From Sulfitobacter sp. W027 (GTDB taxonomy: Bacteria; Pseudomonadota; Alphaproteobacteria; Rhodobacterales; Rhodobacteraceae): 64,000 nt of DNA. The notes beneath the pieces were generated by a model, which was given only the letters and a program-made list of their open reading frames with translations, ran no database searches and had not been told where the DNA came from. The stretch spans positions 2,697,001-2,761,000 of the forward strand of contig NZ_CP083564.1 in NCBI RefSeq assembly GCF_025143985.1, in the 5' to 3' direction. The position numbers and the translations under genes are program-made. This document shows positions 32,353 to 51,158 of this stretch, piece after piece (within the stretch, counting starts at the first letter, position 1; every line of letters starts with the position of its first letter).

Positions 32353-33237
32353 TCATCCCATACGTTTTGAGCTGTAGCTACCAGGCGATGCGGGAAGCAC
32401 TACAGTCTTATTCCCGATTAGAAACACGCGGTAGTTAGCATGAGCATGGACAGCTCGAGCCAACACGCTGGCTTCTACGTCCCGCCCTAGCGAAACATAA
32501 TCCGACCCATTCTGCGCATGGGTAACTCGCACGGTATCCTGCTCAATAATCGGACCCTCATCCAGATCAGCGGTCACATAATGCGAAGTCGCGCCAATAA
32601 GCTTTACGCCACGTTCATAGGCTTGCTTGTAGGGGTTCGCTCCTTTGAACGAAGGCAGAAAAGAATGATGAATGTTGTTAATTCGACCGCTCATCTTCTG
32701 GCACATGGCATCAGAGAGAACCTGCATATAGCGGGCGAGCACGATCAATTCTCCGCCTACTTCTTCGACCACGGCCATGATCCGCGCCTCAGCTTCGGGT
32801 TTATTTTCTTTGGTCACCTTTATGTAGTGAAATGGAATATCATGGTTCACCACGACCTTCTGATAATCCATATGGTTTGAGATTACCGAAACGATCTCAA
32901 TCGGTAGGGCTCCAATGCGCACCCGGTACAAAAGATCGTTAAGACAATGGCCGAAACGTGAAACCATTACGACGACCTTCATCGGTTTACCTTGATCATG
33001 AAACTCGTAGGACATGTCGAAGCGACCTGCCACGTCGTTAAAGCCCTCGCTAATGTCTGCGAGCATAGCACCGGTTTCGGCTTCCGCGCTGATGCGCATA
33101 AAAAATTGCCCGTTATCAGCATCGTCAAACTGGGTGCTGTCGGTAATATTACAGCCATTCTGCGCGATATAATTTGCGATTGCTGCAACAATTCCGCGTT
33201 TAGAAGGGCAACTAACAGTCAAACAAAACTGGGTCAC
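32353..33237 (-). CDS. purU: Formyltetrahydrofolate deformylase
   Basis: A 294-residue enzyme hydrolysing 10-formyl-THF to formate and THF. N-terminal ACT domain (residues 1-85, LTVSCPSKRGIVAAIANYIA), then the formyltransferase fold with INNIHHSFLPSFKGANPY containing the catalytic His, and the conserved GATSHYVTADLDEGPII with the Asp. Slightly longer than usual (about 285). It closes the operon of importer, amidohydrolase and GMC oxidoreductase. In amine degradation it can recycle one-carbon units made by demethylation or formimino/formyl removal. Confidence 0.9.
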   Translation of the reverse strand: MTQFCLTVSCPSKRGIVAAIANYIAQNGCNITDSTQFDDADNGQFFMRISAEAETGAMLADISEGFNDVAGRFDMSYEFHDQGKPMKVVVMVSRFGHCLNDLLYRVRIGALPIEIVSVISNHMDYQKVVVNHDIPFHYIKVTKENKPEAEARIMAVVEEVGGELIVLARYMQVLSDAMCQKMSGRINNIHHSFLPSFKGANPYKQAYERGVKLIGATSHYVTADLDEGPIIEQDTVRVTHAQNGSDYVSLGRDVEASVLARAVHAHANYRVFLIGNKTVVLPASPGSYSSKRMG

Positions 33238-33375
33238 GGGCTCAACTCTTGGTTTTCAATAGCAGGGAATAAGCGACGGAGGTAAGACGGCGATAGCCCT
33301 GTCTGCATTCCTTCCGCTGCTGGGTCACGTAGCATGGCAACGGCGAGAGCGAAATCGACCTTAGGCAACACCCCC

Positions 33376-34986
33376 TCAAGCCGCCCGCCAGTCCGAAGTT
33401 ATCATGCGCGCGCATTTCTCACCGATCATCATTGAAGGCGCGTTGGTATTGCCGCCGATCAACATGGGCATGACCGAAGCATCACCGATCCGGAGGTTGG
33501 CCAAACCGTAAACCTTGAGGGTATCGGAATTAACCACTGCCATTGCGTCATGTCCCATCTTCGCGGTGCCAACAGGATGGTACACGGTTAAGGCCTCCGC
33601 GCGCAGATAGGCAAGAATATCAGCATCGTTTTTGACATCGGATCCGGGTAGTATTTCACTCCCTTCAAGATCAGCCATTGGCCCCGCCGCAAAAATACGG
33701 CGCGCCAATTTAATACCTTCGACCAAGACTTCCGCATCTCGACTGTGAGAAAAAAAACGATGGTCAATTAAGGGCACCAGTTCGCCTTGTTCCCGTCCAA
33801 CTGTAATCTGTCCGACGGACTGGGGCCGAAGGACGCAGGTATGAACTGCAAATCCATGCCCCCACTCAATCAGTCGCCCGCGGTGACTGCGATAGCCAGG
33901 AACGAAATGGAACTGCACGTCCGGTAGTTCATCAGCGAGAGGGGTTTTGGCAAACCCGCCCGCGACGACATAGTTGGTCGAAAGCTCGCCCTTCCGTTTG
34001 CTACCAAAGGCAAATGGCGCACTTATTAGTCGCCGCCAGTTCGCAAACGAAAGCCCCAGAGTGCGCGCTGATGGACTACGCACGGTGATCATCCCATCTA
34101 CGTGATCGCGTAGGTTGCGACCAACCCCCGGCAGATCGTGTAGAACCTCCACACCTGCTCCCTTTAGCACGTCAGCAGGCCCGATTCCGGATTGCATCAA
34201 AGCCATCGGCGTACCAATAGCGCCTGCGCTCAAGATCACTTCGCCCGCGCAGGTAACCTCAACAATTTTGTCGTTCCGCTTAAGCGCGACGCCGGTCACC
34301 CGCCCATCTTTGATCACAAGCTTCGTCAGTTCGGTTCCTGTCCACACTTCCAGATTCTTCCGGTGTAGGACGGGTTGGAGAAAAGCATTGTAGGACGAGA
34401 AGCGCAGTCCGTTTTTTTGGTAACGTTATATATTCCAAGACCGAGCTGAGAAGGTCCGTTGAAGTCCATGTTATGCGGCAACTGTAGCGTCTCCCCCGCC
34501 CTAATGAACTGATCGCAGACAGGGTTCGGGTCGGTAGGGTTGCTGACGTGCCGTTCGCCATTACTGCCATGAAAGTCCGTCGATTGTCCTATGGTGTTGC
34601 ACTCAAGGTCTTTAAAGATCGGCAGTACGTCGTTCCACCCCCCATCCCTCGCAGCCAAGGTCGCGCCACTCGTCATAGTCTTGCGCCGCGCCGCGAATAT
34701 AGAGCATCGAGTTCATGGAGGACGATCCGCCGAGCATCTTGCCCCGATTAACTGGAATACGCCTGTCGTTTAATTCGGGCTGTGGCGTACCGACATATCC
34801 GTAATCAAAGCGCTTGCGGCCATACATCGCAAGGATACCAGCAGGAAGTTTGACGCGAGGATCGCTTTGTCCGCCGCCCGCTTCCACCACTAAGACACGC
34901 GTCTTGGATTGAACGGACAGACGGTTTGCCAAGACGCATCCTGCCGATCCGGCGCCAATAATGATGTAGTCAAAGCTCTGCGTCAT
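33376..34986 (-). pseudogene. GMC-family oxidoreductase, two homopolymer frameshifts
   Basis: Three consecutive frames make one choline-dehydrogenase-like GMC flavoprotein: FDYIIIGAGSAGCVLANRLS and GKMLGGSSSMNSMLYIRG in the first (34986-34612), DVLPIFKDLECNTIG and LGLGIYNVTKK in the second, and NLEVWTGTELTKLVI through YHPVGTAKMGHD with the catalytic His/Asn end in the third. The breaks are at a six-C run (34638-34643, one base too many) and a seven-T run (34412-34418, one too few). Repaired length would be about 536 residues. If the indels are real, the gene is dead; if they are base-calling errors, it is an intact alcohol oxidase. Confidence 0.8.
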
Positions 34987-36619
34987 GGGTAATTTTTCCG
35001 TCACAAATTGTTAGAGAGATGCGCGCGGCGTCTTTGTCCTGCGCCAGATCGTCGAGGCTGCCATCTATCAAGACCAGATCCGCCACGAACCCTTCTTGCA
35101 GCGCCCCCCGACAATCCTCCGTGAAGTCCGCATAGGCACCACCGGTGGTGTAGGCCAAAAGGCATTCTTCAAGACTGATCCTCTGATCTGGCGTGTCTGG
35201 CCCCCAAGGCTTACGGGCAAGCGCACAATGGATTGCGTAAAGCGGAGATAGGGGAGAGACAGGCCAATCTGTTCCAAAAGCAAGCGGGATATCGCGGTCG
35301 CGGATCATCCTCCATGGGAAGGCCGTATCCCACCGCCCGCGCCCCATGATCGTTGTCGTCGGCTCCAACGGCAATCCAGCAGAACCCGGCGGATGGACCG
35401 GCTGCATTGATGCGACAATACCAAGCGGTTTAAGCCGATCCAGATCAGGGGAAGTAATAGTGTCGATATGTTCAATGCGATGGCGGCTGTCTCGCTTGCC
35501 ATTTTTCTTTTGTGCAGCTTCGTAGCCATCAATAGTTGCGCGCACTGCGCCGTCCCCTACCGCATGGGTCGCCATCTGAATTCCTCGTTTATCCGCCGCA
35601 ACGCAGATGGCGTTAAATACTTCTGGTGCGATCAATGGTTCGGACCGAAAGCCAGCCCGTTCAGGATAATCGGACACAGTTAGGGCAGTCCAAGTGTCGT
35701 AAACGCCATCAAGGAACAATTTGATACGACCAAAATGCAGCCAGCCCCGCACCTCCTCACCGAAGAGATCAATGCGGTCGACCCCTTCAGGGCCATCCTT
35801 CTCAACCAGTTTTAAAGGTAAGCTGACCCGCACAGGCATCTCCCCTGCCTGTGCCAAGTCGCGCATTAGTCCGGCCTGATAGGGGTTGCCGTCCATATTC
35901 ACAGCTGAGGTGATACCATGCTGTGCGCAATAGAGCCCAGCCCGCCGAATTAAGGCCTGATCATGGGCGCGGCTTTCCTCAGCAACTGGTTCTATACCAG
36001 TATTGTCGAGGCTGTCTCGCCCCTGCAAATCCGTCAGGTTTTGGATATAGCGCATGGCTTCGAATTCGCGCAATTCGCCCGTGGCCAGCCCGTCGTTCCC
36101 CATGACTACTTCGGCCCCCTGCCCGACGTCGGCACCATGCAAAATACCAGCGAGTTCAAGAGCACGGGTGTTAGCCCAAGCACAATGCAGGTCAACTGCC
36201 AGCATGCAGATCGGCCGGTTCGGGGAAATTCTATCTAAAAGGTGCCGGTCAGGGCGCGCGTTATCACCGACGATTGTGTAATTTGCAGAAAAACCGGTCA
36301 AGATACCCTTGCCAGGATTTTTCTTGATGAATGCCTGAAAAGCCGCATTCAACGCGTCAAACCCAAATACATCGGTCAAATTCAGCATTGAAAGCGTCGC
36401 GCCGCCCATAAAAAGATGCAGGTGACTTTCGATAAAGCCCGGCAACAGCTCACGACCTTGGGCGTCGATCATTCGGGTCGCAGTCCCTGCCTGAGCACAG
36501 ATGTCAGCGTCCGTTCCCCGCGCAACGATCTGACCTGATTTTATGGCCAGCGCAGTGGTCCCGGGGGGCGCAAAGATTGACCGAATTTTCACGTTGAAGA
36601 TACAGAGATCGACCGACAT
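34970..36619 (-). CDS. YtcJ-type metal-dependent amidohydrolase
   Basis: A 549-residue amidohydrolase_3 family enzyme. Metal ligands HLH in GFIESHLHLF, a glycine-rich centre, HAVGDGAVRATIDGY and HRIEHIDTI with later metal His residues, and GTDWPVSPLSP with the catalytic Asp. Members hydrolyse amides, formamides or cyclic imides in the cytoplasm. It lies 50 bases after the Pot-type binding protein and overlaps the start of the GMC gene. In the proposed pathway it could open a cyclic or formyl amide, but the substrate is unproven. ATG 36619 chosen over the longer frame. Confidence 0.85.
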   Translation of the reverse strand: MSVDLCIFNVKIRSIFAPPGTTALAIKSGQIVARGTDADICAQAGTATRMIDAQGRELLPGFIESHLHLFMGGATLSMLNLTDVFGFDALNAAFQAFIKKNPGKGILTGFSANYTIVGDNARPDRHLLDRISPNRPICMLAVDLHCAWANTRALELAGILHGADVGQGAEVVMGNDGLATGELREFEAMRYIQNLTDLQGRDSLDNTGIEPVAEESRAHDQALIRRAGLYCAQHGITSAVNMDGNPYQAGLMRDLAQAGEMPVRVSLPLKLVEKDGPEGVDRIDLFGEEVRGWLHFGRIKLFLDGVYDTWTALTVSDYPERAGFRSEPLIAPEVFNAICVAADKRGIQMATHAVGDGAVRATIDGYEAAQKKNGKRDSRHRIEHIDTITSPDLDRLKPLGIVASMQPVHPPGSAGLPLEPTTTIMGRGRWDTAFPWRMIRDRDIPLAFGTDWPVSPLSPLYAIHCALARKPWGPDTPDQRISLEECLLAYTTGGAYADFTEDCRGALQEGFVADLVLIDGSLDDLAQDKDAARISLTICDGKITHDAEL

Positions 36620-36669
36620 GAACTGCCCCCTGACGTGGATTGGAGGGCCGATGGCCCTCCGAAAATTTG

Positions 36670-37686
36670 TTACTGCAGAAGCTGGGTCCAGACCCGGGTC
36701 ACCAAATCCTGCGCGGCGGGCGAGCAACTGCGAGACATCTCGACCGGCACCTCGGGATAGAGGGCAGGCGCATTTTCTTTGGTGTATTTTTTATCGGCTT
36801 CGACGACCTCAAGCGGCGATGAATGTGCGTAGTAGTTCATTTGCGCGGTAGCATTCTCCGGCGTCGAAATGAATTCGATGAACTTAATGGCGTTGTCGCG
36901 GTTCGGCGCGCCTTTGGGGATCACGAGACTGTCGATCCAACCCACCAAGCCTTCCTTAGTCATCGCGTATTCAACCGGTGCCCCGTCGCCTTTTGCGCGA
37001 ACCACTTCACCGTCCCACCAGAAATGCGCGGCAACTTCACCAGAACTGAGGCGTCCTTCGATGTTGTCAGATGAATATGCTGCTACGTGTTCTTTCTGTG
37101 CCATGAGCAAGTCCAGCACCCGCTTCATCTCATCTGGGTCTTCCGAGCAGAAGGGTATCCCGAGATAGAGCTGTGCGGCGCCAATAACCTCGTCTGGGTA
37201 GGACAACATAGCGATTTTGCCTGCTAGATCGCTTTCCGGCTCGAAGAAATATTTGAGACTGTCGGTCGGGCCGTCGTATTCTGCGGTGTTTACGGCGAAA
37301 CCAGCAGAGCCGTAGGCTAACGGGATCGAATACTCCTGCGTTTCGTCCCACCATTGGTTGCGCCAGCGCTCGTCAATGGCGTCATAGGCATCGAGTTCAC
37401 TGGCCCCAAAGTCTTCGATCAGCTCCTCGTCGATCATGATGCGCAAAAAGTGCTGGGAAGGTGCCGCCAAATCGTAGCCAGAGGCGCCTGCCTGCAGCTT
37501 GGTTAGCAGGTCTTCGTTAGAGGTATAGCCATCTACACTGACATCAACGTCATATTCCTGGGAGAATTTTTCGATGAGTTCAGGCGCGATCGACTCAGAC
37601 CAGACGTAGAGATTTAGCTTACCTTCGGCCGCCGCTAAGGTGCCAAAGCAGAGCGCGATGGCCGTGGCTGAATAAAGTTTGTTCAT
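36670..37686 (-). CDS. Polyamine-type ABC transporter substrate-binding protein
   Basis: A 338-residue periplasmic protein of the PotD/PotF group with signal peptide (residues 1-20). LNLYVWSESIAPELIEKF and GYDLAAPSQHFLRIMIDE are typical. It would bind a cationic amine. Acidic residues suitable for amine contact (for example the Asp/Glu-rich DEELIEDFGASELDAYD) are present. Followed by the amidohydrolase and preceded by both permeases. Confidence 0.88.
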   Translation of the reverse strand: MNKLYSATAIALCFGTLAAAEGKLNLYVWSESIAPELIEKFSQEYDVDVSVDGYTSNEDLLTKLQAGASGYDLAAPSQHFLRIMIDEELIEDFGASELDAYDAIDERWRNQWWDETQEYSIPLAYGSAGFAVNTAEYDGPTDSLKYFFEPESDLAGKIAMLSYPDEVIGAAQLYLGIPFCSEDPDEMKRVLDLLMAQKEHVAAYSSDNIEGRLSSGEVAAHFWWDGEVVRAKGDGAPVEYAMTKEGLVGWIDSLVIPKGAPNRDNAIKFIEFISTPENATAQMNYYAHSSPLEVVEADKKYTKENAPALYPEVPVEMSRSCSPAAQDLVTRVWTQLLQ

Positions 37687-37718: not shown

Positions 37719-38522
37719 TCAGTCATTGTTGTTCTGACCGTGAGCAGCCACGGACAGGGCAATCGTTGCAAGCAGGATCGAACCGATAATTAGCATGGTC
37801 GCGATTGCATTCAGTTCCGGTGACGTTCCGGCCCGAATGAGAGAAAAGATATAGACCGGCAACGTGGTCGTGCCGCCCGAACTAAGGAGGTTTGAAGTGA
37901 TGAAATCATCCATCGAAATCAAAAACGCCAGCATAGCCCCCGAGAACAGCCCCGGAAAAATCAGAGGTAATGTCACTCGGCGGAACACTGTCCAACGGGT
38001 GGCATAGAGGTCCATCCCGGCCTCTTCGAGGTCCAGTGACATGCCCTGAAGGCGCGCCCGTATCGGGAGGAAAGCGAATGGGGTGCAGAAGGCAGAATGC
38101 GCAATGACAAGCTTGAGCAGGCCGTTTTGCAACCCTATCAGCGAGAATAGGATCAACGTCGCGACGGCCAAGACAATCTCGGGCAGCAGCAGCGGCAGGT
38201 TGACCACAGTTTCCGATAGCTTGCGAAAGCGCACGCCTTTGCCACGAATGATTGCCAGCGCTGCAAGCAAGGCAATCGTTGTGGCCACCACGGTCGCAAT
38301 TCCCGCAACTATAAGCGAGGTTTTGAGCGCAGCCATTAGCGCGCTGTTGTTCATTGCAGAGCCGTACCACTTAAAGGAAAATTCGGTCCAAACACTGGTT
38401 ATACGGTTCGCGTTGAATGAATAGAGTACGACGATCAAAAGGGGCGCATAGAGATAAGCAAAGAAAGCGATGCTGAGCAGCCCCAACCCAGGGTAGCGTT
38501 TAACGTTATGGTGCCTATTCAT
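37719..38522 (-). CDS. Polyamine-type ABC transporter permease (PotC/PotI-like)
   Basis: A 267-residue inner-membrane protein with six helices and the ABC coupling motif EEAGMDLYATRWTVFRRVTL, which contacts the ATPase. Overlaps the first permease by 4 bases and precedes the binding protein. Confidence 0.88.
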   Translation of the reverse strand: MNRHHNVKRYPGLGLLSIAFFAYLYAPLLIVVLYSFNANRITSVWTEFSFKWYGSAMNNSALMAALKTSLIVAGIATVVATTIALLAALAIIRGKGVRFRKLSETVVNLPLLLPEIVLAVATLILFSLIGLQNGLLKLVIAHSAFCTPFAFLPIRARLQGMSLDLEEAGMDLYATRWTVFRRVTLPLIFPGLFSGAMLAFLISMDDFITSNLLSSGGTTTLPVYIFSLIRAGTSPELNAIATMLIIGSILLATIALSVAAHGQNNND

Positions 38523-39442
38523 TGCTTCATCTCCCTACGGGCGCTGCGGATCGCAATGGCAATCAGCACCAGCATCACGACCGTCAAAAGGGTGATGGCA
38601 ATTGCCGCCCCAAAGGGCCAATTGCGCCCGCCCCCGAACTGAAGCTGGATGAGCGACCCCATCATCATCTGTTTGCCACCGCCCATTAAGATCGGTTCCA
38701 GCACCGCCCCAAGGGCTGGCACGAAGACGAGAATGGCACCCGAGGCGATGCCGGGAGCGGTGAGCGGCAGGATAACGCGGCGCAGGGTAACCCAACGGTT
38801 GCCGTAGAGATCATGCGCCGCTTCGATCAGTGTGCCGTCGAGCTTTTCAATGGAGGCAAAAACAGGCAGCACCATTAGCGGGATATAGGTATAGACCATC
38901 GCTGCCAGCGTTGCGCCATCGTTATACATTAGCGTCATCCCCTCTGGCGCTCCGAAAAGGCCGAGGAACCGCGGGAGCGGGCCGCCCTTCCCGAGAATGA
39001 TCATCCAGGCATAGACCCGCAGGATCATTGACATCCAGAACGGCAGAGTGACCAGAAAAACGAGAATTGATTTGCGATGCCCAGGTTGGCTTGCAATCCA
39101 ATAGGCCACTGGAACTGCGAGGATTAGACAAAGGACCGTCGTGATAGCTGCCAACAGAATGGTACGAAAGATGATGATTAGATATTGCGCCGTAAATTCC
39201 ATCTCGCCAGTCCAGCCTTCGTTGAACATGATTTGGCGATAGCCAGTAAGATCGAATCCCCAATCGAACCCTCCGTAAGCCCCACGTGTCGCAACGGAAA
39301 CAGCCCCAACGATGAAGATGGGCAGGATCAGAGCGAAACCCATGATTAGCCAAGCGGGGAGTAGCCCAAGATAGGGGAGTTTGATTCCACGGCGACGGGC
39401 TCGTGGCAAAAGGGGGCTATGATGCGATGCGATATCAGTCAT
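38519..39442 (-). CDS. Polyamine-type ABC transporter permease (PotB/PotH-like)
   Basis: A 307-residue permease with about six helices and the coupling motif EAAHDLYGNRWVTLRRVILP. The N-terminus has a charged stretch (LLPRARRRGIKLPYL). Overlaps the ATPase gene and the second permease by 4 bases on each side. Confidence 0.88.
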   Translation of the reverse strand: MTDIASHHSPLLPRARRRGIKLPYLGLLPAWLIMGFALILPIFIVGAVSVATRGAYGGFDWGFDLTGYRQIMFNEGWTGEMEFTAQYLIIIFRTILLAAITTVLCLILAVPVAYWIASQPGHRKSILVFLVTLPFWMSMILRVYAWMIILGKGGPLPRFLGLFGAPEGMTLMYNDGATLAAMVYTYIPLMVLPVFASIEKLDGTLIEAAHDLYGNRWVTLRRVILPLTAPGIASGAILVFVPALGAVLEPILMGGGKQMMMGSLIQLQFGGGRNWPFGAAIAITLLTVVMLVLIAIAIRSARREMKQ

Positions 39443-40512
39443 GCAGCTAATACCCGCGCCGAAGTTTCAACAAAACCGACATTGACGATACCGCCTACCG
39501 GGATCACGTCCCCCTCTCGGGATGCATTGCGGCGCGAAGCCCGTATTTCAGCTCCCCCCGCTGAAAGGAGGTAATGCGTATATCCGCCCAAGTATTGCTT
39601 GCTTAACACCTTAGCTTCGAAATCAATCCCTTCAGCTTGGTCGCCCAAATTGAGCTTTTCAGGCCGGATCGACAGGGTCGCTTTTCCCAGTCCGATTGCC
39701 GCCGTCGAAGGCACAGTGATAACCTGTCCGAAGGGTGTACGGACGGTTGCTGTTTTCGAAGCGGTTTTCAAAACCTCAACATCAAGGAAATTCGTCTCGC
39801 CGATGAAATCGGCGACAAAGCGGTTGGCTGGGTCTTCGTAGATTTCCGACGGTGCGCCAAGTTGCTGGATTTCACCGCTACCCAGCACCGCGATACGGTC
39901 TGACATGTCCAGCGCCTCTTCTTGATCATGGGTCACGAAAACGAATGTGATACCGGTGTCGCGCTGTAGACTGCGTAACTCGTTGCGCATCGCCTGACGC
40001 AGCTTCAAATCCAACGCCGAGAGCGGTTCGTCCAGGAGCAGCACTTCCGGGTCTGGTGCGAGAGCGCGCGCCAACGCGATCCGCTGTCGCTGCCCGCCGG
40101 ACAATTGAGCCGGCTTGCGGTTTGCAAAGGCGTCCATATGCACCCGCTCAAGCATCTCGCCCACACGGCTACGAATTTTTGCTTTGTCCCAACCGAGGTT
40201 TTCCAACCCAAAGGCAACATTCTGCGAGAGGGTCATATGGGGAAACAACGCGTAACTTTGAAACACGGTATTCACCCGGCGCTTATGGGGCGGGATATCA
40301 ACGATATCGCGACCATGCAGTCTGATACTGCCGGTGTCTGGCGTCTCGAATCCCGCCATCATGCGCAACAGTGTGGTTTTTCCGCAGCCCGAAGGCCCTA
40401 GCATTGTGAAGAACTCATTTTCGCGGATATTAAAGCTAACGGAACGGAGCGCTTGGTAAGATCCAAAGTTCTTGGATACCGCGTTGACTTCGACTGCGTT
40501 TTGCTGGTTCAT
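39439..40512 (-). CDS. Polyamine-type ABC transporter ATP-binding protein (PotA-like)
   Basis: A 357-residue ATPase: Walker A GPSGCGKTT, signature LSGGQRQRIALARAL, Walker B VLLLDEPLSALD, switch His in VTHDQEEAL, and a C-terminal TOBE-like domain (residues about 285-355). ATG 40512 is used, as the upstream extension lacks a family match. First gene of the operon, divergent from a LysR gene with a 346-base gap. Confidence 0.9.
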   Translation of the reverse strand: MNQQNAVEVNAVSKNFGSYQALRSVSFNIRENEFFTMLGPSGCGKTTLLRMMAGFETPDTGSIRLHGRDIVDIPPHKRRVNTVFQSYALFPHMTLSQNVAFGLENLGWDKAKIRSRVGEMLERVHMDAFANRKPAQLSGGQRQRIALARALAPDPEVLLLDEPLSALDLKLRQAMRNELRSLQRDTGITFVFVTHDQEEALDMSDRIAVLGSGEIQQLGAPSEIYEDPANRFVADFIGETNFLDVEVLKTASKTATVRTPFGQVITVPSTAAIGLGKATLSIRPEKLNLGDQAEGIDFEAKVLSKQYLGGYTHYLLSAGGAEIRASRRNASREGDVIPVGGIVNVGFVETSARVLAA

Positions 40513-40858
40513 CCGGCTTCCCCAAGTTGCAAGTTCACGCCGCCCGACCTGCCATTTCACAAGCAGATGTGACGGTATTTAGCTATGTAGACGGCAAGTT
40601 CCGGAACCGATCAATGAGCACTTCTGGAAGGTATGCTTAGCCTATTCCTAATCCGCGGAGATATTCGGGCAAAACGCCTATGAAATAAGGCGATGTCAGC
40701 AAGAAATCTATAGCCTACGACCAGGGAGTATGCTCCTGCCTGCGTAAATATTGATCAATCCGGCCAATTGATTAGGCACAGTTGAAGTACCGCTTACGCA
40801 GCAAGTTTTTATCGTTTAGGTATGCCGGACGCACCGATCACTATAGCGGGTACAACCA
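40513..40858. promoter_or_regulatory. Divergent control region of the importer operon and LysR gene
   Basis: No gene. TTGATCAATCCGGCCAATTG at 40749-40768 followed by ATTAGG contains overlapping dyads (TTGATCAA and CCAATTG) of the T-N11-A kind LysR proteins favour. Likely holds both promoters; not further resolved. Confidence 0.4.
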
Positions 40859-41794
40859 ATGCCACTTCGATATACGTTCAGACAGTTGGAATATTTCGTC
40901 GCCGTTGGTGAAACTGGCAGTATCGCGGCGGCATCTCATCTTGTGAATGTCTCTTCCCCTTCTATATCCGCGGGTGTTTCGCAGCTAGAGGATGAACTTG
41001 GGGTCAAACTATTCGTTCGTCGCCATGCACAAGGCCTCACGCCGACTGCGGCCGGACGCCAATTGCTTGAACAGGCGAAATACGTCCTGCGCCAAGCAGC
41101 GGAAATACAAGATCTCGCCGGCGATCTTTCGGGTTTTATACGCGGCCCATTGTCGATCGGCTGCCTTAGTACTTTCGCTCAAACCGTGTTGCCCGGCCTG
41201 CGTCAGAGTTTTGTTAGTCAATATGAAGACGTCCGCATCACTCAAATAGAGGCCGATCAATCAGAACTCTTCAGCCTACTTCGCCAGGCAAAGATCGACG
41301 TCGCACTGACCTACGATTTGAGCCTGCCGCGGGACCTCCATTTCCTCCCGATCCTAGAACTACCGCCGCTCGTCGCCTTGAATGAAACCCATCCGCTAGC
41401 GGAGCTGTCAGAGATCACCGTTGAAGAACTGGCGTCACATCCAATGGTGTTATTGGACCTGCCTCATAGTTCAGATTACTTTCTGTCCTTCTTCGCAACC
41501 AAAGGTCTGCGTGCGAACATCGCCGAACGCACCCGTGACATGGCGGTCATGCGCGGCCTCGTGGCCAACGGCTTTGGGTTCTCCATTGTAAATTTCAGAC
41601 CTGCTAACGACCTTGCACCAGATGGCAAACCGCTGCGCTTTGTGCCCCTTGCAGGCGATCAACGTCCTATGAAGCTTGGTTTCTTGACAGGCAGCGATAC
41701 GGATCGAACGCAATTGCTCAAGACATTCTTAGCGCATGCCGAAAGCTGGATTGAAGGACGTGCGGACGCCCTGCTTGGGATTAAGTCTGCTTGA
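40859..41794 (+). CDS. LysR-family transcriptional regulator
   Basis: A 311-residue LysR protein: winged helix-turn-helix at residues about 8-65 (TFRQLEYFVAVGETGSIAAA, SISAGVSQLEDELGVKLFVR) and a periplasmic-binding-like effector domain from about 95. Divergent from the ABC operon and convergent with the M20 deacylase gene, overlapping that gene's 3' end by 66 bases. Probably regulates one or both amine-catabolic blocks with a pathway metabolite as inducer. Confidence 0.88.
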   Translation: MPLRYTFRQLEYFVAVGETGSIAAASHLVNVSSPSISAGVSQLEDELGVKLFVRRHAQGLTPTAAGRQLLEQAKYVLRQAAEIQDLAGDLSGFIRGPLSIGCLSTFAQTVLPGLRQSFVSQYEDVRITQIEADQSELFSLLRQAKIDVALTYDLSLPRDLHFLPILELPPLVALNETHPLAELSEITVEELASHPMVLLDLPHSSDYFLSFFATKGLRANIAERTRDMAVMRGLVANGFGFSIVNFRPANDLAPDGKPLRFVPLAGDQRPMKLGFLTGSDTDRTQLLKTFLAHAESWIEGRADALLGIKSA

Positions 41795-42961: not shown

Positions 42962-45027
42962 TCTGCGGCCAACTCCGTGATCTCGCGGCGGAATGGCAAC
43001 TCGTCCCCGATATCCTCTCCATCAAGTTCGCGGGCATAGCGATGGCCTGCGTAAGTGGCCCATGCAATCGGACCGGAGGCTTCCGCATCACCAAACAGTT
43101 TTACCGACCGGATACCCGCATCTGCCCATTCGTCTTGTCGTGCCGCAAGGTCATGAAACAGTTGGTCGTTGCCGATCCGCGAGGCAACCATGACGACCGC
43201 GTCACACTCATAGCTGCGTGTTTTGCCAGTATAGACGCAATTGCTGACCACATGGCCCGCGCCTACTTCGGTGATGCCACGGTTCAACACGATTTCGACA
43301 CCAAGATTGTCAAGCTTCGCATGAATGGTGGCCTGCTCCAGCGTGTTGTTGGTCCAGTCAGAGACATAGGCCGACGGCGTGACCAAAGTGACTTTCGCGC
43401 CCTGTTTGACCAAAAGCTCGGCCAAGACGCCGCCCATATAGTAGTGATCGTCATCATAAATCACGACATTGCCACCCGGCACAGTGCCACCCATTAAATC
43501 ATCGGGCGTGTATACCTTCGCACCCTCCGCAATCGGCATCGGCACAACATGCTGGCGCGCTACACCGTCGCGCCGCCACGTGGAACCAGTCGCGATCGCG
43601 ACGTTCTGGAAGCCAAACTCCAACACGCTTTCTGCATCCAATTCGCTGGCACGGTAAATCTCTACATTCGGGCGCTGAGAAAGCTGGTAGTCGCGATAAT
43701 CCACGACACGCCCCCAGGCTGAGAGGCCAGGCAATGCACGTTCGCGGGTGACGCGGCCTCCAATGACGTCGCGGGCTTCAGCCACCGCCACGTCATAGCC
43801 ACGGCGGCACAGCGCCCAGGCCGCTTCCAGTCCAGCGGGGCCCGATCCGATAACCAGCACATTCTCGCTGGTGCCCTTAGAGTTCATTGTTTCCGGGTGC
43901 CAACCTTTACGCCATTCCTCCATAAAAGTCGGGTTCTGTGTGCAGCGGCTAATGGACATGGTCATGTCGCCAGTGATGCAGATATTGCAGCCAATACATT
44001 CGCGAATATCCTCTATCCGTCCTTCTTCAATCTTCTTAGGCAGGAACGGGTCCGCGATGGAAGGCCGCGCACAGCCGATCATGTCAAGCGTGCCGGATTT
44101 GATCATCTTGGCCATAACATCAGGTGAGGTGAAGCGGCCAACACCGACAATCGGCTTATCGGTCAGGTCTTGAATGCCCTTCACCAATTGTTCCTGGGCA
44201 GCCTCCTCCTTGAAACGCGATGGGCCTGAGCAATCCTCCCAAGTCCCCTGTGCCAGATCCCAGATGTCAGGCAAATTGCGGTTCATCTCGACAAAATCTC
44301 GGACTTCGGCATTCGAAAAGCCCAGCTCGCCGATCGTCTCATCAAGAGATACGCGGAGTGCGATGGCCATCGTGTCCCCCACTGCGTCCCGGATATCACC
44401 GATCACCTCATTTGCGAAACGGGCACGGTTCTCTAGTGAGCCACCATACTCGTCTGTGCGGTGGTTGGTTGCGCGACTGAGGAAGTGCTGAAAAATGCCG
44501 AACCCATGTGCGCCGTAGAGATTGATGAGATCAAACCCTGCCTCTCGTGACCGTTTGGCCGCGTTCACGAACCAGCGGCGCAGATCCTTAATCTCGGTCT
44601 TGGACAACGCGCGGGCCTGCACCGGATCGTTAGTAAATGTGCGGATCGGCAGCGCGGAGGGCGCCAGCGGCACTTCCTTTGAATAGAGGTTCGGGCCATT
44701 GATACCCGAATAGGCAAGCTGAATGCCGGCCAGCGCCCCATGCTCTTTCATCTTTTCCGACATACGTCGTAGCTGCGGAATGTCTTTGTCTTCCCACAGC
44801 CGCAACTCAATGAACGGCGTAATCTCGGATGTGTGGTGCATTTCGCATTGTTCGGTGAAAATTACCGCCCAACCACCTTGGGACTTGATTCCGCGCATCT
44901 CCGCCGCGGCAGAAGGATCTCTGTACCCGCCACCGTTACAATGTGGGACTTGATAAAACCGGTTCTTGGCGGTCAGCGGGCCAATCTGAAGGGGTTCGAA
45001 CAGAATGTCGTAACGAGGGTCGCGCAT
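42958..45027 (-). CDS. Histamine/trimethylamine dehydrogenase-family iron-sulfur flavoprotein
   Basis: A 689-residue enzyme: TIM barrel with FMN (residues 1-380), then an FAD/ADP-binding part (GSGPAGLEAAWALCRRGYD). C30 in FYQVPHC sits where trimethylamine dehydrogenase links FMN as 6-S-cysteinyl-FMN. The 4Fe-4S ligands are C344, C347, C350 and C362. The catalytic trio corresponds to Y171, H174 (YGAH) and D265. The aromatic substrate bowl is changed: the TMADH Tyr60 place is Q60 and the Trp355 place is D354, while W263 is kept. From memory, Gln/Trp/Asp is the arrangement of histamine dehydrogenase. It should oxidatively deaminate a primary amine, feeding electrons to ETF. Start MRDP (45027) rather than 45039. 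Confidence 0.88.
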   Translation of the reverse strand: MRDPRYDILFEPLQIGPLTAKNRFYQVPHCNGGGYRDPSAAAEMRGIKSQGGWAVIFTEQCEMHHTSEITPFIELRLWEDKDIPQLRRMSEKMKEHGALAGIQLAYSGINGPNLYSKEVPLAPSALPIRTFTNDPVQARALSKTEIKDLRRWFVNAAKRSREAGFDLINLYGAHGFGIFQHFLSRATNHRTDEYGGSLENRARFANEVIGDIRDAVGDTMAIALRVSLDETIGELGFSNAEVRDFVEMNRNLPDIWDLAQGTWEDCSGPSRFKEEAAQEQLVKGIQDLTDKPIVGVGRFTSPDVMAKMIKSGTLDMIGCARPSIADPFLPKKIEEGRIEDIRECIGCNICITGDMTMSISRCTQNPTFMEEWRKGWHPETMNSKGTSENVLVIGSGPAGLEAAWALCRRGYDVAVAEARDVIGGRVTRERALPGLSAWGRVVDYRDYQLSQRPNVEIYRASELDAESVLEFGFQNVAIATGSTWRRDGVARQHVVPMPIAEGAKVYTPDDLMGGTVPGGNVVIYDDDHYYMGGVLAELLVKQGAKVTLVTPSAYVSDWTNNTLEQATIHAKLDNLGVEIVLNRGITEVGAGHVVSNCVYTGKTRSYECDAVVMVASRIGNDQLFHDLAARQDEWADAGIRSVKLFGDAEASGPIAWATYAGHRYARELDGEDIGDELPFRREITELAAE

Positions 45028-45085
45028 TTTAATCTCCAAAAAGGAAGGTCGTGTCAGAGGCGTCCAACTCGGACGCCCGGCATGA

Positions 45086-46582
45086 TCAGGTTTTGTATTT
45101 GATCCAAGTGGTTTTCAGCGCGGTGTATTTGTCCAGCGAATGCAGAGACAAGTCGCGCCCAAAACCGGATTGCTTCACGCCCCCGAATGGGGTCTGGGCC
45201 GATAGCGCATCGACCGTATTGACGGAAACCGTACCAACATTCAGACGGTCTGCTACCCGGCAGGCGCGCGAAAGGTTGTCTGTCCAGACCGAAGCCGCCA
45301 GACCGTAGATTGAATCATTGGCCATAGCGACGGCATCCTCTTCGCGATCAAAGGAGATCACCGACAAGACCGGGCCAAAGATTTCATCACGGGCCAGCGG
45401 ATCATCATGCGCGACATCTGTAAAGATCGTCGGCTGTACGAAACAGCCCTTCCCGTCGACCTGCACCCGCCTCCCCCCAGTCACAAGATCAGCGGTCTTT
45501 TGGCCAGCTTCTACAAACCCCATGATCCCTTGTGTCTGCTTCTCATCGACAATGGCACCCATCTTCGCAGCGGGGTCCAGCGGATCGCCGGGTTGCATAT
45601 TCTCCGCGCGAGCGACCAGCTTCTCAACCAGCGCGTCTTTGATCGAGCGTTCGACATAAAGACGCGAGTTGGCAGAGCAGACCTCGCCCTGATTAAAGAA
45701 AATGCCGAAGGCGGCCATGTCGGCGGCGGCGTCGAGATCTTCACAATCCGCAAACACAAGATTGGGGCTTTTGCCCCCTGTCTCCGGCCAAACCTGTTTA
45801 AGGTTGGATTGACCGGAGTATTGCATGAAAAGCTTGCCCGTAGCTGTCGATCCGGTGAAGGCGAGGCAATCCACATCCATATGCAGGCCAAGCGCCTTTC
45901 CAGCCGTTGCGCCATAACCCGGCACAACGTTAAGCACACCATCGGGTAGCCCCGCCTCAGAGGCCAACTCGGCTAGACGCAGCGCCGACAGCGGCGATTG
46001 CTCAGCCGGTTTTAGAACCACTGAGTTGCCAGCAGCCAAGGCGGCCGCCGATTTCCATGTCGCCATATCAAGCGGGAAGTTCCACGGCACCACGGCCCCT
46101 ACGACTCCCAAGGGCACACGCCGGACCAGTGCCAAATCACCGGGCCCGGTTGGAGCAACCTCGTCATAGAGCTTGTCGATCGCCTCAGCATACCATTGGA
46201 AGAAATGAGCCGAGCCGGGGGCGTCTACAGTGGTGGCATCAGTGATCGTTTTGCCCATGTCCAAGCTGTCCAACAAAGCCATTTCCGCGAGATTTTCGCG
46301 GATTAAATCTGCCAGTTTCAGCAGAACCGCTTTGCGGTCGCCCGGTGCCATGCGCGACCAGCGGCCATCCTCAAAGGCGCGGCGGCCGGCTGCCACCGCC
46401 AGATCGACATCGGCGGCGTCGCATTCAGCAACCAGCGCCAACACTGCGCCGGTGGCTGGATTAGTACTTTCAAAGGTCCTACCGGAAACGGCATCAACGA
46501 AAGCACCGTCAATAAACGCTTTACTGCGGATGTCCAAATTGGCCGCGCGTGTCGCCCAGTCCTTGCGGGTATAATCGAGCAT
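45086..46582 (-). CDS. Aminoaldehyde-type aldehyde dehydrogenase (PuuC-like)
   Basis: A 498-residue NAD(P) aldehyde dehydrogenase with catalytic C302 (NQGEVCSANSRL) and general base E267 (WPETGGKSP), VVPWNFPLDMATWK near 165-177 and GSTATGKL for cofactor. Closest in pattern to gamma-aminobutyraldehyde/PuuC enzymes. It lies 58 bases upstream of the flavoprotein in the same operon, so it should oxidise the aldehyde released by it to an acid, for example imidazoleacetaldehyde to imidazoleacetate if the amine is histamine. Confidence 0.9.
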   Translation of the reverse strand: MLDYTRKDWATRAANLDIRSKAFIDGAFVDAVSGRTFESTNPATGAVLALVAECDAADVDLAVAAGRRAFEDGRWSRMAPGDRKAVLLKLADLIRENLAEMALLDSLDMGKTITDATTVDAPGSAHFFQWYAEAIDKLYDEVAPTGPGDLALVRRVPLGVVGAVVPWNFPLDMATWKSAAALAAGNSVVLKPAEQSPLSALRLAELASEAGLPDGVLNVVPGYGATAGKALGLHMDVDCLAFTGSTATGKLFMQYSGQSNLKQVWPETGGKSPNLVFADCEDLDAAADMAAFGIFFNQGEVCSANSRLYVERSIKDALVEKLVARAENMQPGDPLDPAAKMGAIVDEKQTQGIMGFVEAGQKTADLVTGGRRVQVDGKGCFVQPTIFTDVAHDDPLARDEIFGPVLSVISFDREEDAVAMANDSIYGLAASVWTDNLSRACRVADRLNVGTVSVNTVDALSAQTPFGGVKQSGFGRDLSLHSLDKYTALKTTWIKYKT

Positions 46583-46596: not shown

Positions 46597-47271
46597 TTAT
46601 TGATCGCCCGGTACGCCGTAAGAAGGCGCTTCCCGAGGGTCTAGTGCGCGCTGGATGTAGGCGTCGAGCTGCGGCTTATAGATGTCCCAAGCCGTCGCGA
46701 TGTTTTCGATGGGGCACTCTTCAGTCCAATCGCAGCGCAGATCGGCGACCGGCCAGCTGACTTTATCGACGATCTTCATGCCTGCAGAATGTACTGGCCC
46801 CGCTTCCCCGCCCGCGGCCAAACCTGCGCGCATTGCGGCAATCAATCGGTCGCCGATGTGACCTGTAGCCGTCAAATAGCCGTCTACAATGGCCTGCGGG
46901 ACGCGGTCGTTGGCCAGCAGATTGCCGCCAGAAGCGACATTTTCAGCCTGCGCATCAGTCCAGATACCAAGAGATTTGGGGCCGGAGTGAATGGCCGTTC
47001 GCCCTGCCGTGTCCACGGCAAGCACCTGTCGATACTCCAGAAAAGACGCTTCTTCCTGCATTCGTGCGATTGCCTCAACTGCCGTCAGGCCATCTTGCAT
47101 CAGATCAAGCGTCGCTGGCCCCAGTGATGGGTCAGTGACATTCTGAGTGGCAACAGCGCCCACAGCAGCCCGGGCGAATGAACAACGCGCTGCCACCGCT
47201 GGAGAGGACGAGGAAATCGCCACGCCGAACATGCCGGTGTCGGGGCAACGAGCTACCAATGAAAACGTCAT
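46597..47271 (-). CDS. DUF1028 Ntn-hydrolase-like protein
   Basis: A 224-residue DUF1028 protein. The N-terminus MTFSLVARCPDTGMFGVAIS followed by SSSPAVAARCSFARAAVGAV is diagnostic. The fold is like N-terminal nucleophile hydrolases, but no reaction is established. Overlaps the RidA gene by 4 bases and precedes the aldehyde dehydrogenase by 14 bases. DUF1028 genes recur in amino-acid and amine degradation operons, suggesting hydrolysis of an amide-type intermediate. Confidence 0.85.
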   Translation of the reverse strand: MTFSLVARCPDTGMFGVAISSSSPAVAARCSFARAAVGAVATQNVTDPSLGPATLDLMQDGLTAVEAIARMQEEASFLEYRQVLAVDTAGRTAIHSGPKSLGIWTDAQAENVASGGNLLANDRVPQAIVDGYLTATGHIGDRLIAAMRAGLAAGGEAGPVHSAGMKIVDKVSWPVADLRCDWTEECPIENIATAWDIYKPQLDAYIQRALDPREAPSYGVPGDQ

Positions 47272-47684
47272 TGCGGGATCACCGCTGTGCCGTCGATCTC
47301 CACCAACCAGTCTGGACGGGCCAGCGCTTGCACGACAAGCCCGGTAGAGACCGGATGCACGCCCTTGATGTACTCGCCCATGGTTCGGTAGACGGCCTCG
47401 CGATGACGAACATCGGTGATGTAGACGACAACTTTTACCAGATGCTCCATCTGACCTCCGGCTTCTTCAATTAGTTGCTTGATGTTCTGCATGACCTTAT
47501 GCGTCTGCTCTACAGGATCGTGGCTCTCGATGTTTTTTGCGTCATCGAGATTCTGCGGGCATTGGCCGCGCAACCAGACAATCTTGCCTCCTTCGGTCAC
47601 GACAGCCTGGCATAGATCGTTGTCTAGGTTCTGTTCGGGATAAGTGTCCGAAGTGTTAAATTTGCGAATTCGGGTATGTGCCAT
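47268..47684 (-). CDS. RidA-family protein
   Basis: A 138-residue RidA/YjgF-type protein (VVYITDVRHREAVYRTMGEY, VQALARPDWLVEIDGTAVIP; the Arg of the family's imine site is seen in ALARPDWLVEI). Such proteins hydrolyse reactive enamines/imines to ketones plus ammonia. In this operon it would clear imines produced by the amine-oxidising flavoprotein. Overlaps DUF1028 by 4 bases. Confidence 0.88.
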   Translation of the reverse strand: MAHTRIRKFNTSDTYPEQNLDNDLCQAVVTEGGKIVWLRGQCPQNLDDAKNIESHDPVEQTHKVMQNIKQLIEEAGGQMEHLVKVVVYITDVRHREAVYRTMGEYIKGVHPVSTGLVVQALARPDWLVEIDGTAVIPQ

Positions 47685-47699
47685 GATCTATTCCTTGGA

Positions 47700-48977
47700 C
47701 TATTCCGCGGCGGCCTGCACGATGGCGGCCTGACCTTCATATTTTTCATAGCTGCGCTGGATCTCTATCTGGTCGGCAATATGTTTGGCATCATGCCAAA
47801 CCCCCCAGATGAAAGACGAACCGCGTCGGGATTGCCATGGCAGACCCAGGAAGTAGATATCCGGCTCCACTGAGACACCGCGGTTATGAAGTGGTGCTCC
47901 TCTGTCGTCGAACGCATCGACTTTTAGCCAACTAAAATCCTGTCGAAAGCCGGTAGCCCAGATGATTGTCGAGATCCCCTCGTTCTGGAGAGCGACAGAG
48001 CGTATCGGCTGCGTCAAGCATTGCGGGTCTGGATACATCTGCCGCGCTTCGGGTTCTTCCGGCAAATTCAAACCCGTGCGGGCAACATAGGCATCGGCTA
48101 AGTCCAACACTTCAAGATAGTTTGCGTCGCCTGCCGCGATATTCTGCTGCAAATCATCCGCAAAACTCAGTTCGCCGTCGCTATAGCCGCTGGTCAAACC
48201 TGTCAGTATGACCCCCTCGCCCCCAAGGCGGCGGAAGTCCATCGTACGACCACCGTGGGCGCCACTTACAGAAATAGTCACATGCTCTGTCCCTGGCGCG
48301 GGTGCAGCCATATCCCAGAGCCCCAAGACACCAAGCCACCAAACATTGTCGCGCCCCCGATAGCGACGAGGCGGGCGATCATGCGGTCCGACCGAAAGAA
48401 ACACCTTGCGGCCAGCACGGTTCAATTCGTCCGCGATCTGCGCGCCCGAAGAGCCCGCCCCGACAACCATCACTGCCCCGGCGGGAAGTGCTTCGGGGTT
48501 TTTGTAATGAAAGGAGTGAATTTGTTGGACAGGCGCTTCCTTTGGCACGATCGGCGGGATTACGGGATGCTGGAAAGCACCAGTAGCAGCAACGATACGA
48601 CGAGCTTCGATATCGCCCGAACTTGTTCGGACAAGAAAGCCACCGGTACCGGATAACCTGTGCGCTTCTTTAACCTCGACCCCTTCTCGAATTGGGGCCT
48701 TAATCATCGCGGCGTAATCCACCAGATATTGAGCAAGACGATCTTTCGAGACGAATTCGTCCGGCTTGGCCTCTTCGAACGCAAGACCTGGGAAGCGATC
48801 ATGCCAAGCAGGTCCGTTGGCTACAAGATTATCCCACCGACCAGTGCGCCATGCCTCAGCAGTTCGTTTCTTTTCAAGCACGATGTGAGGAACTTCCGCA
48901 TTTCGCAGATGCTCGCTCATGGCGATCCCGGCCTGCCCTCCACCAACAACGAGGGTATCGATCTTCTCTACGGGCAT
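47700..48977 (-). CDS. Flavin-containing monooxygenase-type NAD(P)/FAD oxidoreductase
   Basis: A 425-residue flavoprotein: FAD site VVGGGQAGIAMSEHL (10-24), NADPH site VVGAGSSGAQIADEL near 165, and QIHSFHYKNPEAL at the region of the FMO/BVMO fingerprint. The C-terminal half has LPWQSRRGSSFIWG. Members hydroxylate or N-oxygenate small molecules. First gene of the flavoprotein operon; it ends 15 bases before the RidA gene. It is a candidate for ring oxygenation of imidazoleacetate. ATG 48977 gives the normal start; 48995 is also possible. Confidence 0.82.
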   Translation of the reverse strand: MPVEKIDTLVVGGGQAGIAMSEHLRNAEVPHIVLEKKRTAEAWRTGRWDNLVANGPAWHDRFPGLAFEEAKPDEFVSKDRLAQYLVDYAAMIKAPIREGVEVKEAHRLSGTGGFLVRTSSGDIEARRIVAATGAFQHPVIPPIVPKEAPVQQIHSFHYKNPEALPAGAVMVVGAGSSGAQIADELNRAGRKVFLSVGPHDRPPRRYRGRDNVWWLGVLGLWDMAAPAPGTEHVTISVSGAHGGRTMDFRRLGGEGVILTGLTSGYSDGELSFADDLQQNIAAGDANYLEVLDLADAYVARTGLNLPEEPEARQMYPDPQCLTQPIRSVALQNEGISTIIWATGFRQDFSWLKVDAFDDRGAPLHNRGVSVEPDIYFLGLPWQSRRGSSFIWGVWHDAKHIADQIEIQRSYEKYEGQAAIVQAAAE

Positions 48978-49254
48978 CTCAGCACTTCCTTCCATGAACC
49001 GAAACATCGTCCACAGTGGGACCCTGCAACGAGAAATAAGAGAAATGGGATGCAACTAAAATAACGGAAAGTCGCACCAGATATAAGGAACAGCCTAACC
49101 CGAACTCGAAAGTCCTTTGATGGCGACAGCAAAACCACCTTCCACGCTGAACTACTTAGGAATTTCCGTAGCTAAGCGTAACTAAAGAATGGTTTTGCCA
49201 GCACCTTTGCTGCGCCACACAAAGCGCAATTCAGCTCCCTGCATGAGGCAAAAA

Positions 49255-50691
49255 ATGGATGGCTATCTTACCCCCGACGACGCCATGAGGCTCGAAGAAG
49301 ATACGATCGGGGAGATGCAGCTTCCAGCAAACTGCGTGTACGGCATTCATACCGCACGTGCGCTTTGCAACTTCCCGATCTCTGGCGTGCCGCTCAGCCA
49401 CTTTCCGGAACTTGTCGGCGCCCTCGCGATGGTCAAGAAAGCCGCTGCTATGGCCAATTGCGAGGTTGGCGATCTCGCACCAGATCTCGCGCGGGCCATC
49501 ATCACGACATGCGACGAGATTTGCGCTGGACAGCACCATAAAAACTTTGTCGTCGATATGGTCCAAGGGGGAGCAGGCACGTCAACAAACATGAACGCGA
49601 ATGAAGTTATTGCAAACCTCACGTTAGAGCGTTTGGGGCACAACTATGGTGACTACCGGAATCTACATCCTAACGATCATGTAAACCGTTCCCAATCTAC
49701 GAATGACGTTTATCCCACGGCACTTCGGTTGGCAGTATTGTCGGCATGTGCGCCTCTCTTGGTACAACAAAAACGGCTGAGCGCGGCTTTCGCGGAGCGA
49801 GCGCAGGCCTTTGAGGCGGTCATGAAAGTCGGCCGTACGCAGATGCAGGATGCGGTGCCGATCACCCTCGGGATGGAATTTGCCTCCTTCGCTGACACGG
49901 TTGACGAAGATATCGAAAGGCTTCAGCAGGCCTCTGAGCTTTTGAAAGAAGTGAACCTCGGGGGTACCGCAGTCGGAACGGGCGTAAATGCACCGTCAGG
50001 CTATGCAGAGCGTGCGATCGACAATCTCGCGGCTATCTCTGGTCACAACCTTATTGCCGCAAAGAACCGCATTGAGGCCTCTTCGGACCTTGGTGCCTTC
50101 GTCATGTTCTCCAGCACGCTTAAACGCATCGCTGTAAAAATATCTAAAATCTGTAACGACCTCCGCCTTCTTAGCAGTGGACCGCGTGCAGGCTTGGGAG
50201 AAATTTCCCTTCCGCCGGTTCAGGCAGGTTCGTCGATCATGCCGGGCAAAGTGAACCCGGTAATTCCCGAGGTCGTAAACCAAGTCGTCTACCAGGTGAT
50301 TGGGAATGACCTCACAGTGACGCTGGCAGCCGAGGCAGGCCAGTTGCAGTTAAACGCAATGGAACCGGTGCTAATCTTGAACGTACTCCAATCCATCCGA
50401 ATGCTGACACGCGCCTTCCAAGTCTTAACAGACCGCTGCGTCAACGGCATCGAAGCTAATACTGAGCGCTGTCAGGAGCTACTGGAGAGGTCCCTGGTCC
50501 TTGCGACGGCGCTTGCCCCCTTGATCGGCTACGAACGCGCCACTGAAATAGCCAAAATTGCCCATCGAACCAACAGTACGGTTGCCGAGGTCGCGGTTCA
50601 AACCGGGGCAATCGAAGCCTCGGACATTTCCTCTCTGCTCACGGCAGAGGCGATGTTGAGCCGTGCAATTCGTCAGAAAGAAACCCCTTAA
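49255..50691 (+). CDS. aspA: Aspartate ammonia-lyase (aspartase/fumarase family)
   Basis: A 478-residue lyase of the fumarase/aspartase superfamily: [13 protein letters not shown] near the centre, [16 protein letters not shown] with the catalytic region, and the flexible SS loop [15 protein letters not shown]. Residues typical for aspartase over fumarase (Gln/Thr-rich [14 protein letters not shown]) favour deamination of L-aspartate to fumarate plus ammonia. Starts at 49189 or 49243 are alternatives. Divergent from the FMO operon and co-directional with etfB, it would link the end product aspartate to the TCA cycle. Confidence 0.85.
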
Positions 50692-50720
50692 AATGCCTAA
50701 ATACAAAGGAGCAACAGTTT

Positions 50721-51158
50721 ATGAAGGTGCTTGTATCCGTCAAACGGGTAATTGACTACAACGTTAAGGTACGCGTTAAAGCGGACGGGAGCGGCGTTGA
50801 CCTTTCCAATGTCAAAATGTCCATGAACCCTTTCGACGAAATTGCCGTCGAAGAGGCGGTCCGGCTGAAAGAGGCTGGTATTGCCAAAGAGGTTGTCGCG
50901 GTTTCCATCGGTGTGAGACAGTCGCAAGAAACCCTGCGCACGGCCTTGGCAATGGGCGCTGATCGCGCGATCCTCATACTGGCCGCTGACGACGTACATA
51001 GCGATATCGAACCGCTGGCAGTCGCGAAACTACTGAAAGCCGTAATCGACGATGAGAAGCCCAGCCTTGTCCTTACAGGAAAACAGGCGATCGATAACGA
51101 TATGAATGCCACCGGCCAAATGCTGGCCGCGCTAACCGGATGGGCTCAGGGAACTTTC
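50721..51158 (+). pseudogene. etfB: Electron transfer flavoprotein beta subunit, cut by an IS66 element
   Basis: The first 146 residues ([20 protein letters not shown] ... [20 protein letters not shown]) are a normal EtfB start; full-length proteins have about 250. At base 51159 the frame enters IS66 sequence and stops at 51194, losing the FAD/AMP-binding C-terminal half. It begins 30 bases after aspA. ETF is the natural electron acceptor of the TMADH family, so its presence here and its disruption are notable. No second etfB or etfA is in the window. Confidence 0.82.

Follow-up and report, generated by a model that had tools for sequence, protein, structure and literature searches.

Bacterial histamine breakdown has been described in detail for the hin pathway of Pseudomonas putida U and P. 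aeruginosa (hinABCD, hinFLHG, hinIJ and hinK), whose genes lie in four regions and which uses the aminotransferase HinC for the first step and the permease HinA. Genes PA5393-PA5390 are given as hinF-hinL-hinH-hinG (PMC8231116, Table 1), and the products are classified as a flavin adenine dinucleotide (FAD) monooxygenase (HinF, EC 1.14.13.5), an enamine deaminase (HinL), an amidase (HinH) and an enzyme of EC 3.5.1.8 (HinG) (PMC6467879, Table 3). For Brevibacterium, homologues of HinD, H, L, F and I with nearby locus tags are reported in the same paper, which there proposes a first enzyme that is not an aminotransferase but a histamine oxidase resembling the Arthrobacter globiformis enzyme (PMC6467879). 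A flavoprotein that attacks histamine, histamine dehydrogenase (HDH), is known from Rhizobium sp. 4-9 (6DE6) and Nocardioides simplex (3K30), and the accessible parts of the two papers on it treat the enzyme alone (PMC10180351; PMC5500553). Here we analyze a locus in a 64,000-nucleotide stretch (the window) of the 4.1 Mb genome of Sulfitobacter sp. W027, a bacterium that is probably marine (contig NZ_CP083564.1, positions 2,697,001 to 2,761,000), where an HDH gene adjoins genes for the presumed downstream pathway and a regulator. Sequence comparisons make it very probable that these genes form a supercluster for histamine catabolism and represent a variant form of the hin pathway of Pseudomonas, in which the parts are known and the arrangement is new. 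In contrast to the four regions of Pseudomonas, the genes form one locus, and we class it as a variant rather than as the hin pathway itself because the predicted first-step enzyme is HDH in place of HinC and a Pot ABC importer probably replaces HinA. The flavoprotein dehydrogenase also sets it apart from the oxidase proposed for Brevibacterium.

The HDH gene (42958..45039, minus strand) encodes a predicted flavin mononucleotide (FMN) and 4Fe-4S flavoprotein. A first reading of the window, made without database searches (hereafter the sequence-only reading), had called it histamine-dehydrogenase-like, and it proves to be a close orthologue of the characterized Rhizobium enzyme (6DE6), with which it shares 544 of 686 aligned residues (79% identity). 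Among proteins of solved structure 6DE6 scores 1265 bits, followed by 3k30 from Nocardioides (847), 6l6j (653) and trimethylamine dehydrogenase (522). The 4Fe-4S cysteine motif is the same as in 6DE6, as are all 18 positions checked among the pocket, tunnel and contact residues listed in PMC10180351; these include Tyr171, His174, Asp265, Trp263, Asp354 and Cys30, and Leu567, also listed there, lies outside the 18. On this evidence we assign the protein as an orthologue of histamine dehydrogenase (EC 1.4.9.1). In other genomes, all 27 scored loci whose HDH is 74-93% identical retain 17 or 18 of the 18 pocket positions; the number is 16-17 in three loci at 67-73% and 16 in two at 61%. Three loci at 58-60% keep 14, 13 and 7 positions, and 22 proteins below 58% identity keep 6-13.

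HDH belongs to a leftward row of genes in the order hinF-RidA-DUF1028-aldehyde dehydrogenase-HDH-M20, in which four products match the hinF-hinL-hinH-hinG block of P. aeruginosa PA7 in the same order. These are a HinF-like imidazoleacetate flavin monooxygenase (FMO; 47700..49055, minus strand, with the start probably near 48977 as judged from the alignment), a HinL-like enamine/imine deaminase of the RidA family (47268..47684, minus), a HinH-like DUF1028 protein (46597..47271, minus) and a HinG-like M20 deacylase, proposed here as an N-formylaspartate deformylase (41729..42961, minus); identities to the PA7 proteins are 65, 55, 52 and 47%, respectively. The block is also conserved beyond PA7. 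In a named genome collection scanned with an alignment led by a Pseudomonas-type FMO, we used the best 80 of 570 confirmed places, PA7 included, and found RidA at 79, DUF1028 at 78, M20 at 77 and all four genes at 75. HinF-type matches span 58-77% identity, the next stands at 52% and the rest at 46% or less. MSMEG_0569 family flavoproteins (TIGR04046) share the superfamily of the HinF-like enzyme, and the window protein scores 357 bits against that model's cut-off of 498.

The aldehyde dehydrogenase (45086..46582, minus) is HinD-like: searched against PA7, its best gene scores 706 bits (66% identity) and the next 591. For the LysR regulator (40859..41794, plus), which is HinK-like and whose gene converges with that of the M20 deacylase and diverges from potA, the corresponding scores are 171 and 85 bits. 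The best PDB chains for this regulator are 6m5f and 3fzv, which we take to be HinK structures, and their printed sequence matches the PA7 gene adjoining the hinD match. In PA7 the two best matches are divergent neighbours, with genes for an amino-acid permease, a class-III aminotransferase and a binding protein following, an arrangement that fits PA0218-PA0222 (hinK, hinD, hinA, hinC and a binding protein) as described in PMC8231116. The HinI role would be filled by an aspartate ammonia-lyase (49189..50691, plus, with the true start probably internal to this frame), an assignment made by family score rather than by comparison with HinI itself: the protein reaches 688 bits with NF008909 (cut-off 510) and 634.9 with TIGR00839 (cut-off 681), and the next match in the genome scores 454 bits. 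Domains of the HinC aminotransferase and the HinA permease were absent from the 20 proteins scanned at 28934-51652; a genome-wide search for them was not made.

Domain and family scans thus recovered every gene family that the sequence-only reading had named, each at its place. The histamine assignment, which at that stage came from one enzyme's pocket and the aspartase, is borne out by the HDH orthology, the hinF-hinL-hinH-hinG order and the hinD and hinK matches. The description of the locus as two converging blocks has to be corrected, in that the hin operon and a rightward row aspA-etfB diverge from a point at about 49 kb.

We then asked how often these genes travel together, using loci selected by their HDH match: 21 at 74% identity or more (13 from relatives, seven from named plasmids and one from the class sample), eight at 58-73% and 17 below 58%. 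The seven plasmid loci are drawn from 18 listed records with at least 60% HDH identity; the 17 distant paralogues were hand-picked from the matches, and four of them lie on stretches of only 11-15 kb. Seven further loci with HDH at 75-79%, chosen by their FMO, were left out of the counts. At least three of the FMO, RidA, DUF1028 and M20 genes stand beside HDH in 18 of the 21, two of the eight and none of the 17 loci, respectively, with one distant paralogue locus (L234) having two of the four. Of the three loci in the first group that fall short, two are on short contigs (11.0 kb, and 5.8 kb with M20) and one has the FMO only. PotA, PotB and PotC occur together beside 14 of the 21. The most complete set was found in Rhizobium gallicum, where ETFb-AspA-FMO-LysR-ALDH-HDH-RidA-DUF1028-M20-PotABCD-YtcJ (ALDH, aldehyde dehydrogenase; ETF, electron transfer flavoprotein) and part of a GMC gene occur together and an ETF alpha gene adjoins etfB. 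Most of the gene set is therefore syntenic elsewhere, which is more than chance. The annotated copies that we inspected name these genes only as acetylornithine deacetylase, RidA family, DUF1028, aldehyde dehydrogenase, and FAD-dependent or NAD(P)-binding oxidoreductase.

A shared sequence element also speaks for this reading. LysR-type regulators follow a T-N11-A box rule, and the sequence TTAGG-N5-CCTAA, first spotted by eye in the intergenic regions of four loci (L067, L117, L118 and L120), contains such a box. In 26 loci (553,574 bases) we counted 23 exact boxes in 15 loci, against a mean of 0.35 and a maximum of 1 in 20 mononucleotide shuffles; five of the 23 come from the four discovery loci and 18 from the remaining 22, which are not all independent because several are closely related. 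The 400-base regions upstream of cluster genes account for 19% of the sequence and hold all 23 exact boxes and 29 of 30 one-mismatch boxes. The boxes precede hinF, HDH/M20 and potA, and in two loci a gene for an NMT1-type binding protein. Loci with this last gene number four (L087, L088, L089 and L090), the exact box lying upstream of it in L087 and L089, which suggests an alternative importer in the same regulon. The window itself has two one-mismatch boxes, one in each divergent promoter region: 40637..40651 between potA and the LysR gene, and 49084..49098 between hinF and aspA. That number alone is weak, being reached by 8 of 100 shuffles, and it is the position that counts. Placed there, the candidate boxes tie both the pot row and aspA to the row of hin genes.

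The genes suggest the following pathway, whose sequence of intermediates is expected to be that of Pseudomonas. PotABCD would import histamine, and HDH would convert it to imidazoleacetaldehyde and ammonia, the reaction known for its close relative. The electrons would pass to an ETF. The sequence-only reading had put forward the local ETF-beta as acceptor, but its gene is truncated and the window yielded no etfA match; with this etfB broken, HDH would have to rely on an ETF encoded elsewhere in the genome. The HinD-like dehydrogenase would then yield imidazoleacetate, and the HinF-like monooxygenase imidazoloneacetate. Ring opening and removal of the imino nitrogen, giving N-formylaspartate, would be divided between HinH (DUF1028) and HinL (RidA). 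The HinG-like M20 enzyme would release formate and aspartate, and the aspartase would turn aspartate into fumarate. The HinK-like regulator probably binds the TTAGG-N5-CCTAA-like boxes in both divergent promoter regions, which would couple import, ring degradation and the aspartase.

As the ring-opening amidohydrolase, DUF1028 (HinH) is a more likely candidate than the YtcJ-type protein named in the earlier reading. Structure comparison of a model of the DUF1028 protein gave a fold of the proteasome-beta/HslV type, that is, the N-terminal nucleophile (Ntn) hydrolase fold, and many of the HslV and proteasome alignments begin by pairing residue 2 of the model with residue 1 of the chain. Thr2 is present in all 126 of the 126 homologues retained and on this model is the candidate N-terminal nucleophile. 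YtcJ was rejected as imidazolone hydrolase: its match to HutI is short and confined to the N-terminal part, it was found beside five of the 21 HDH-selected orthologues, and the hin pathway has HinH in its place.

The second leftward row is potABCD-ytcJ-GMC-purU. It encodes a PotA-like ATPase (39439..40560, minus; TIGR01187 362.8 bits, cut-off 355.6, with the equivalog NF006987 at 383, below its cut-off of 482), PotB-like (38519..39442, minus) and PotC-like (37719..38522, minus) permeases and a PotD-like periplasmic amine-binding protein (36670..37686, minus), the latter three recognized by Pfam and NCBIfam. With an ATPase, two permeases and a binding protein in one gene row, it agrees with the PotABCD family, and histamine is its presumed ligand. 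Behind it lie the YtcJ-type amidohydrolase (Amidohydro_3, Pfam; 34970..36727, minus), whose true start probably lies inside this frame, as both its database record and many homologues have a length of about 549 residues; a GMC oxidoreductase gene of the choline-dehydrogenase type (Pfam/NCBIfam), present as claimed earlier but split into frames for the N-terminal (34612..35004, minus) and C-terminal parts (33376..34347, minus); and a PurU-like formyltetrahydrofolate deformylase (32353..33237, minus; TIGR00655 above cut-off). PurU had been proposed as the one-carbon recycling step. It was rejected as a conserved pathway part, since a search of 58 neighbourhoods found it in none. The genome has two copies above the cut-off, this being the second, and its link to histamine is doubtful.

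It is conceivable, although we consider it unlikely, that Pot-YtcJ-GMC-PurU forms an operon of its own that adjoins a complete hin operon and handles a different substrate, such as an N-acyl or N-formyl amine. Along with the broken GMC gene and the unconserved PurU, HDH loci without Pot exist, and the genome carries a paralogous PotABCD-YtcJ operon (32-52% identity) at about 2636-2641 kb (L242:5567-11072). Against a separate operon stand the 14 of 21 orthologues with PotA, B and C and the exact boxes upstream of potA in five loci, which represent both Pot lineages linked to HDH: that of the window (L067 and L117) and a second one (L069, L074 and L223). YtcJ accompanies one of the two lineages, standing beside the same Pot system in five HDH loci (L067, L117, L120, L121 and L123). 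At E 1e-100 or better it has matches in only 3 of 385 genomes of the class, Sulfitobacter sp. W027 included, so this is not a common operon.

Decay of the locus to the point where it no longer functions in this genome is less probable still. The truncated ETF beta subunit gene (50721..51194, plus), interrupted by an IS66-type element, aligns to residues 1-149 of a 252-residue relative before IS66-type genes begin (51248-52017), and the GMC protein encoded beside the same genes is intact in Paracoccus seriniphilus (531 residues) and Haematobacter (530). From these two broken genes the locus may be partly decaying. However, the hin-type, HDH, Pot and aspartase reading frames are open with zero internal stops, and the genome has two further pairs of ETF genes, with long frames, elsewhere. 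Moreover, among the 21 loci an etfB match lies beside only two (L118 and L123), so local ETF genes are not general. In Pseudohalocynthiibacter aspA-etfB and a gene for an FAD-binding protein, likely etfA, are divergent from hinF. Finally, that the locus serves another or a broader amine (agmatine, 1,3-diaminopropane or putrescine), with the imidazole genes as mere neighbours, is very improbable: the Pot proteins and the PuuC-like aldehyde dehydrogenase score towards polyamine families, and Rhizobium HDH also oxidizes agmatine at 10% and 1,3-diaminopropane at 13% of its rate with histamine (PMC10180351), but the hinF-hinL-hinH-hinG orthologues in the same leftward row act after imidazoleacetate, the aldehyde dehydrogenase is closest in PA7 to the hinD-position gene, and the pocket is that of the histamine enzyme.

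Besides the two broken genes, several results weigh against a histamine supercluster of the hin type. The hinD and hinK assignments are best matches in one direction only, and the box is absent, at up to one mismatch, from five Pseudomonas stretches including PA7. Linkage is also incomplete: HDH at 58-73% identity mostly lacks the module, the aldehyde dehydrogenase was found beside only 11 of the 21 orthologues, and at seven the search did not turn up PotA, B and C as a set (two on the 11.0 and 5.8 kb contigs and five in 20 kb stretches). With two different Pot lineages at HDH loci, histamine is no more than a presumptive ligand. PA0222, which lies near hinA and is strongly induced by histamine, binds gamma-aminobutyrate and not histamine (PMC8231116), a warning against reading a ligand from gene position.

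Six of 98 relatives have a pyridoxal phosphate (PLP) decarboxylase gene, each time directly downstream of HDH (L070:11060-12391, L072:11105-12436, L073:11118-12458, L075:10924-12387, L077:7668-9104 and G017:C201:1455-2780), with PF00282 recognized in L070, where the mechanical TTG start overlaps the HDH stop and the true start may be later. The five that were scanned fall below the cut-off of every NCBIfam model they match. As recognized histidine decarboxylases they were rejected: with NF002748, whose cut-off is 305, the five score 37-45 bits, and among solved structures one of them comes closest to other PLP decarboxylases. The enzyme is possibly a new histidine decarboxylase feeding histamine to the pathway; histidine is an attractive substrate, with aspartate, the pathway product, as its chief competitor. 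With 7950 of 7999 scored candidates matching at E 1e-60 or better, this is a large family whose members elsewhere need not be linked to histamine; no match at that threshold was found in the Sulfitobacter sp. W027 genome. We found no hutH match in four of the six decarboxylase genomes and a partial match at a contig end in a fifth; four of 14 hand-picked other genomes also had no match, and a link to hutH loss is suggestive at most. As a tentative proposal, the alphaproteobacterial locus would represent a self-contained, flavoprotein-based histamine mineralization in which the uncharacterized DUF1028 family acts as a threonine Ntn hydrolase and opens the imidazolone ring, extended in the sister loci of Sulfitobacter relatives by the decarboxylase to a histidine-to-histamine-to-aspartate route that bypasses hut.

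Other genes accompany HDH in some genomes. A dodecin and a cupin-domain protein (L119:14085-14291 and 15448-15828) are encoded within the HDH-hin row of Leisingera, and a cupin gene follows HDH in Ideonella (L124). On the Ideonella plasmid an aspartate 1-decarboxylase is annotated near the hin and HDH genes (L124:3394-3798), perhaps an alternative fate of aspartate. To the right of the truncated etfB, the window has IS66-type genes, a metallo-beta-lactamase-superfamily protein and a phage-integrase-family frame (51195-54572). The GC content is 50-57% at 28-54 kb versus 55-64% across the rest of the window, a weak contrast. In related bacteria the locus is found on plasmids, and because these copies are plasmid-borne the locus may be mobile.

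Searches of the open-access literature, with subscription papers mostly outside their scope, found no description of HDH combined with the hin pathway and no paper that uses the word DUF1028. The locus joins two literatures, that on HDH, which in open-access papers is mostly a food-sensor enzyme, and that on the Pseudomonas hin pathway. It gives HDH a probable physiological context of ETF, import and regulation, provides DUF1028 with a testable role, and offers in the box a candidate operator by which such loci may be recognized.

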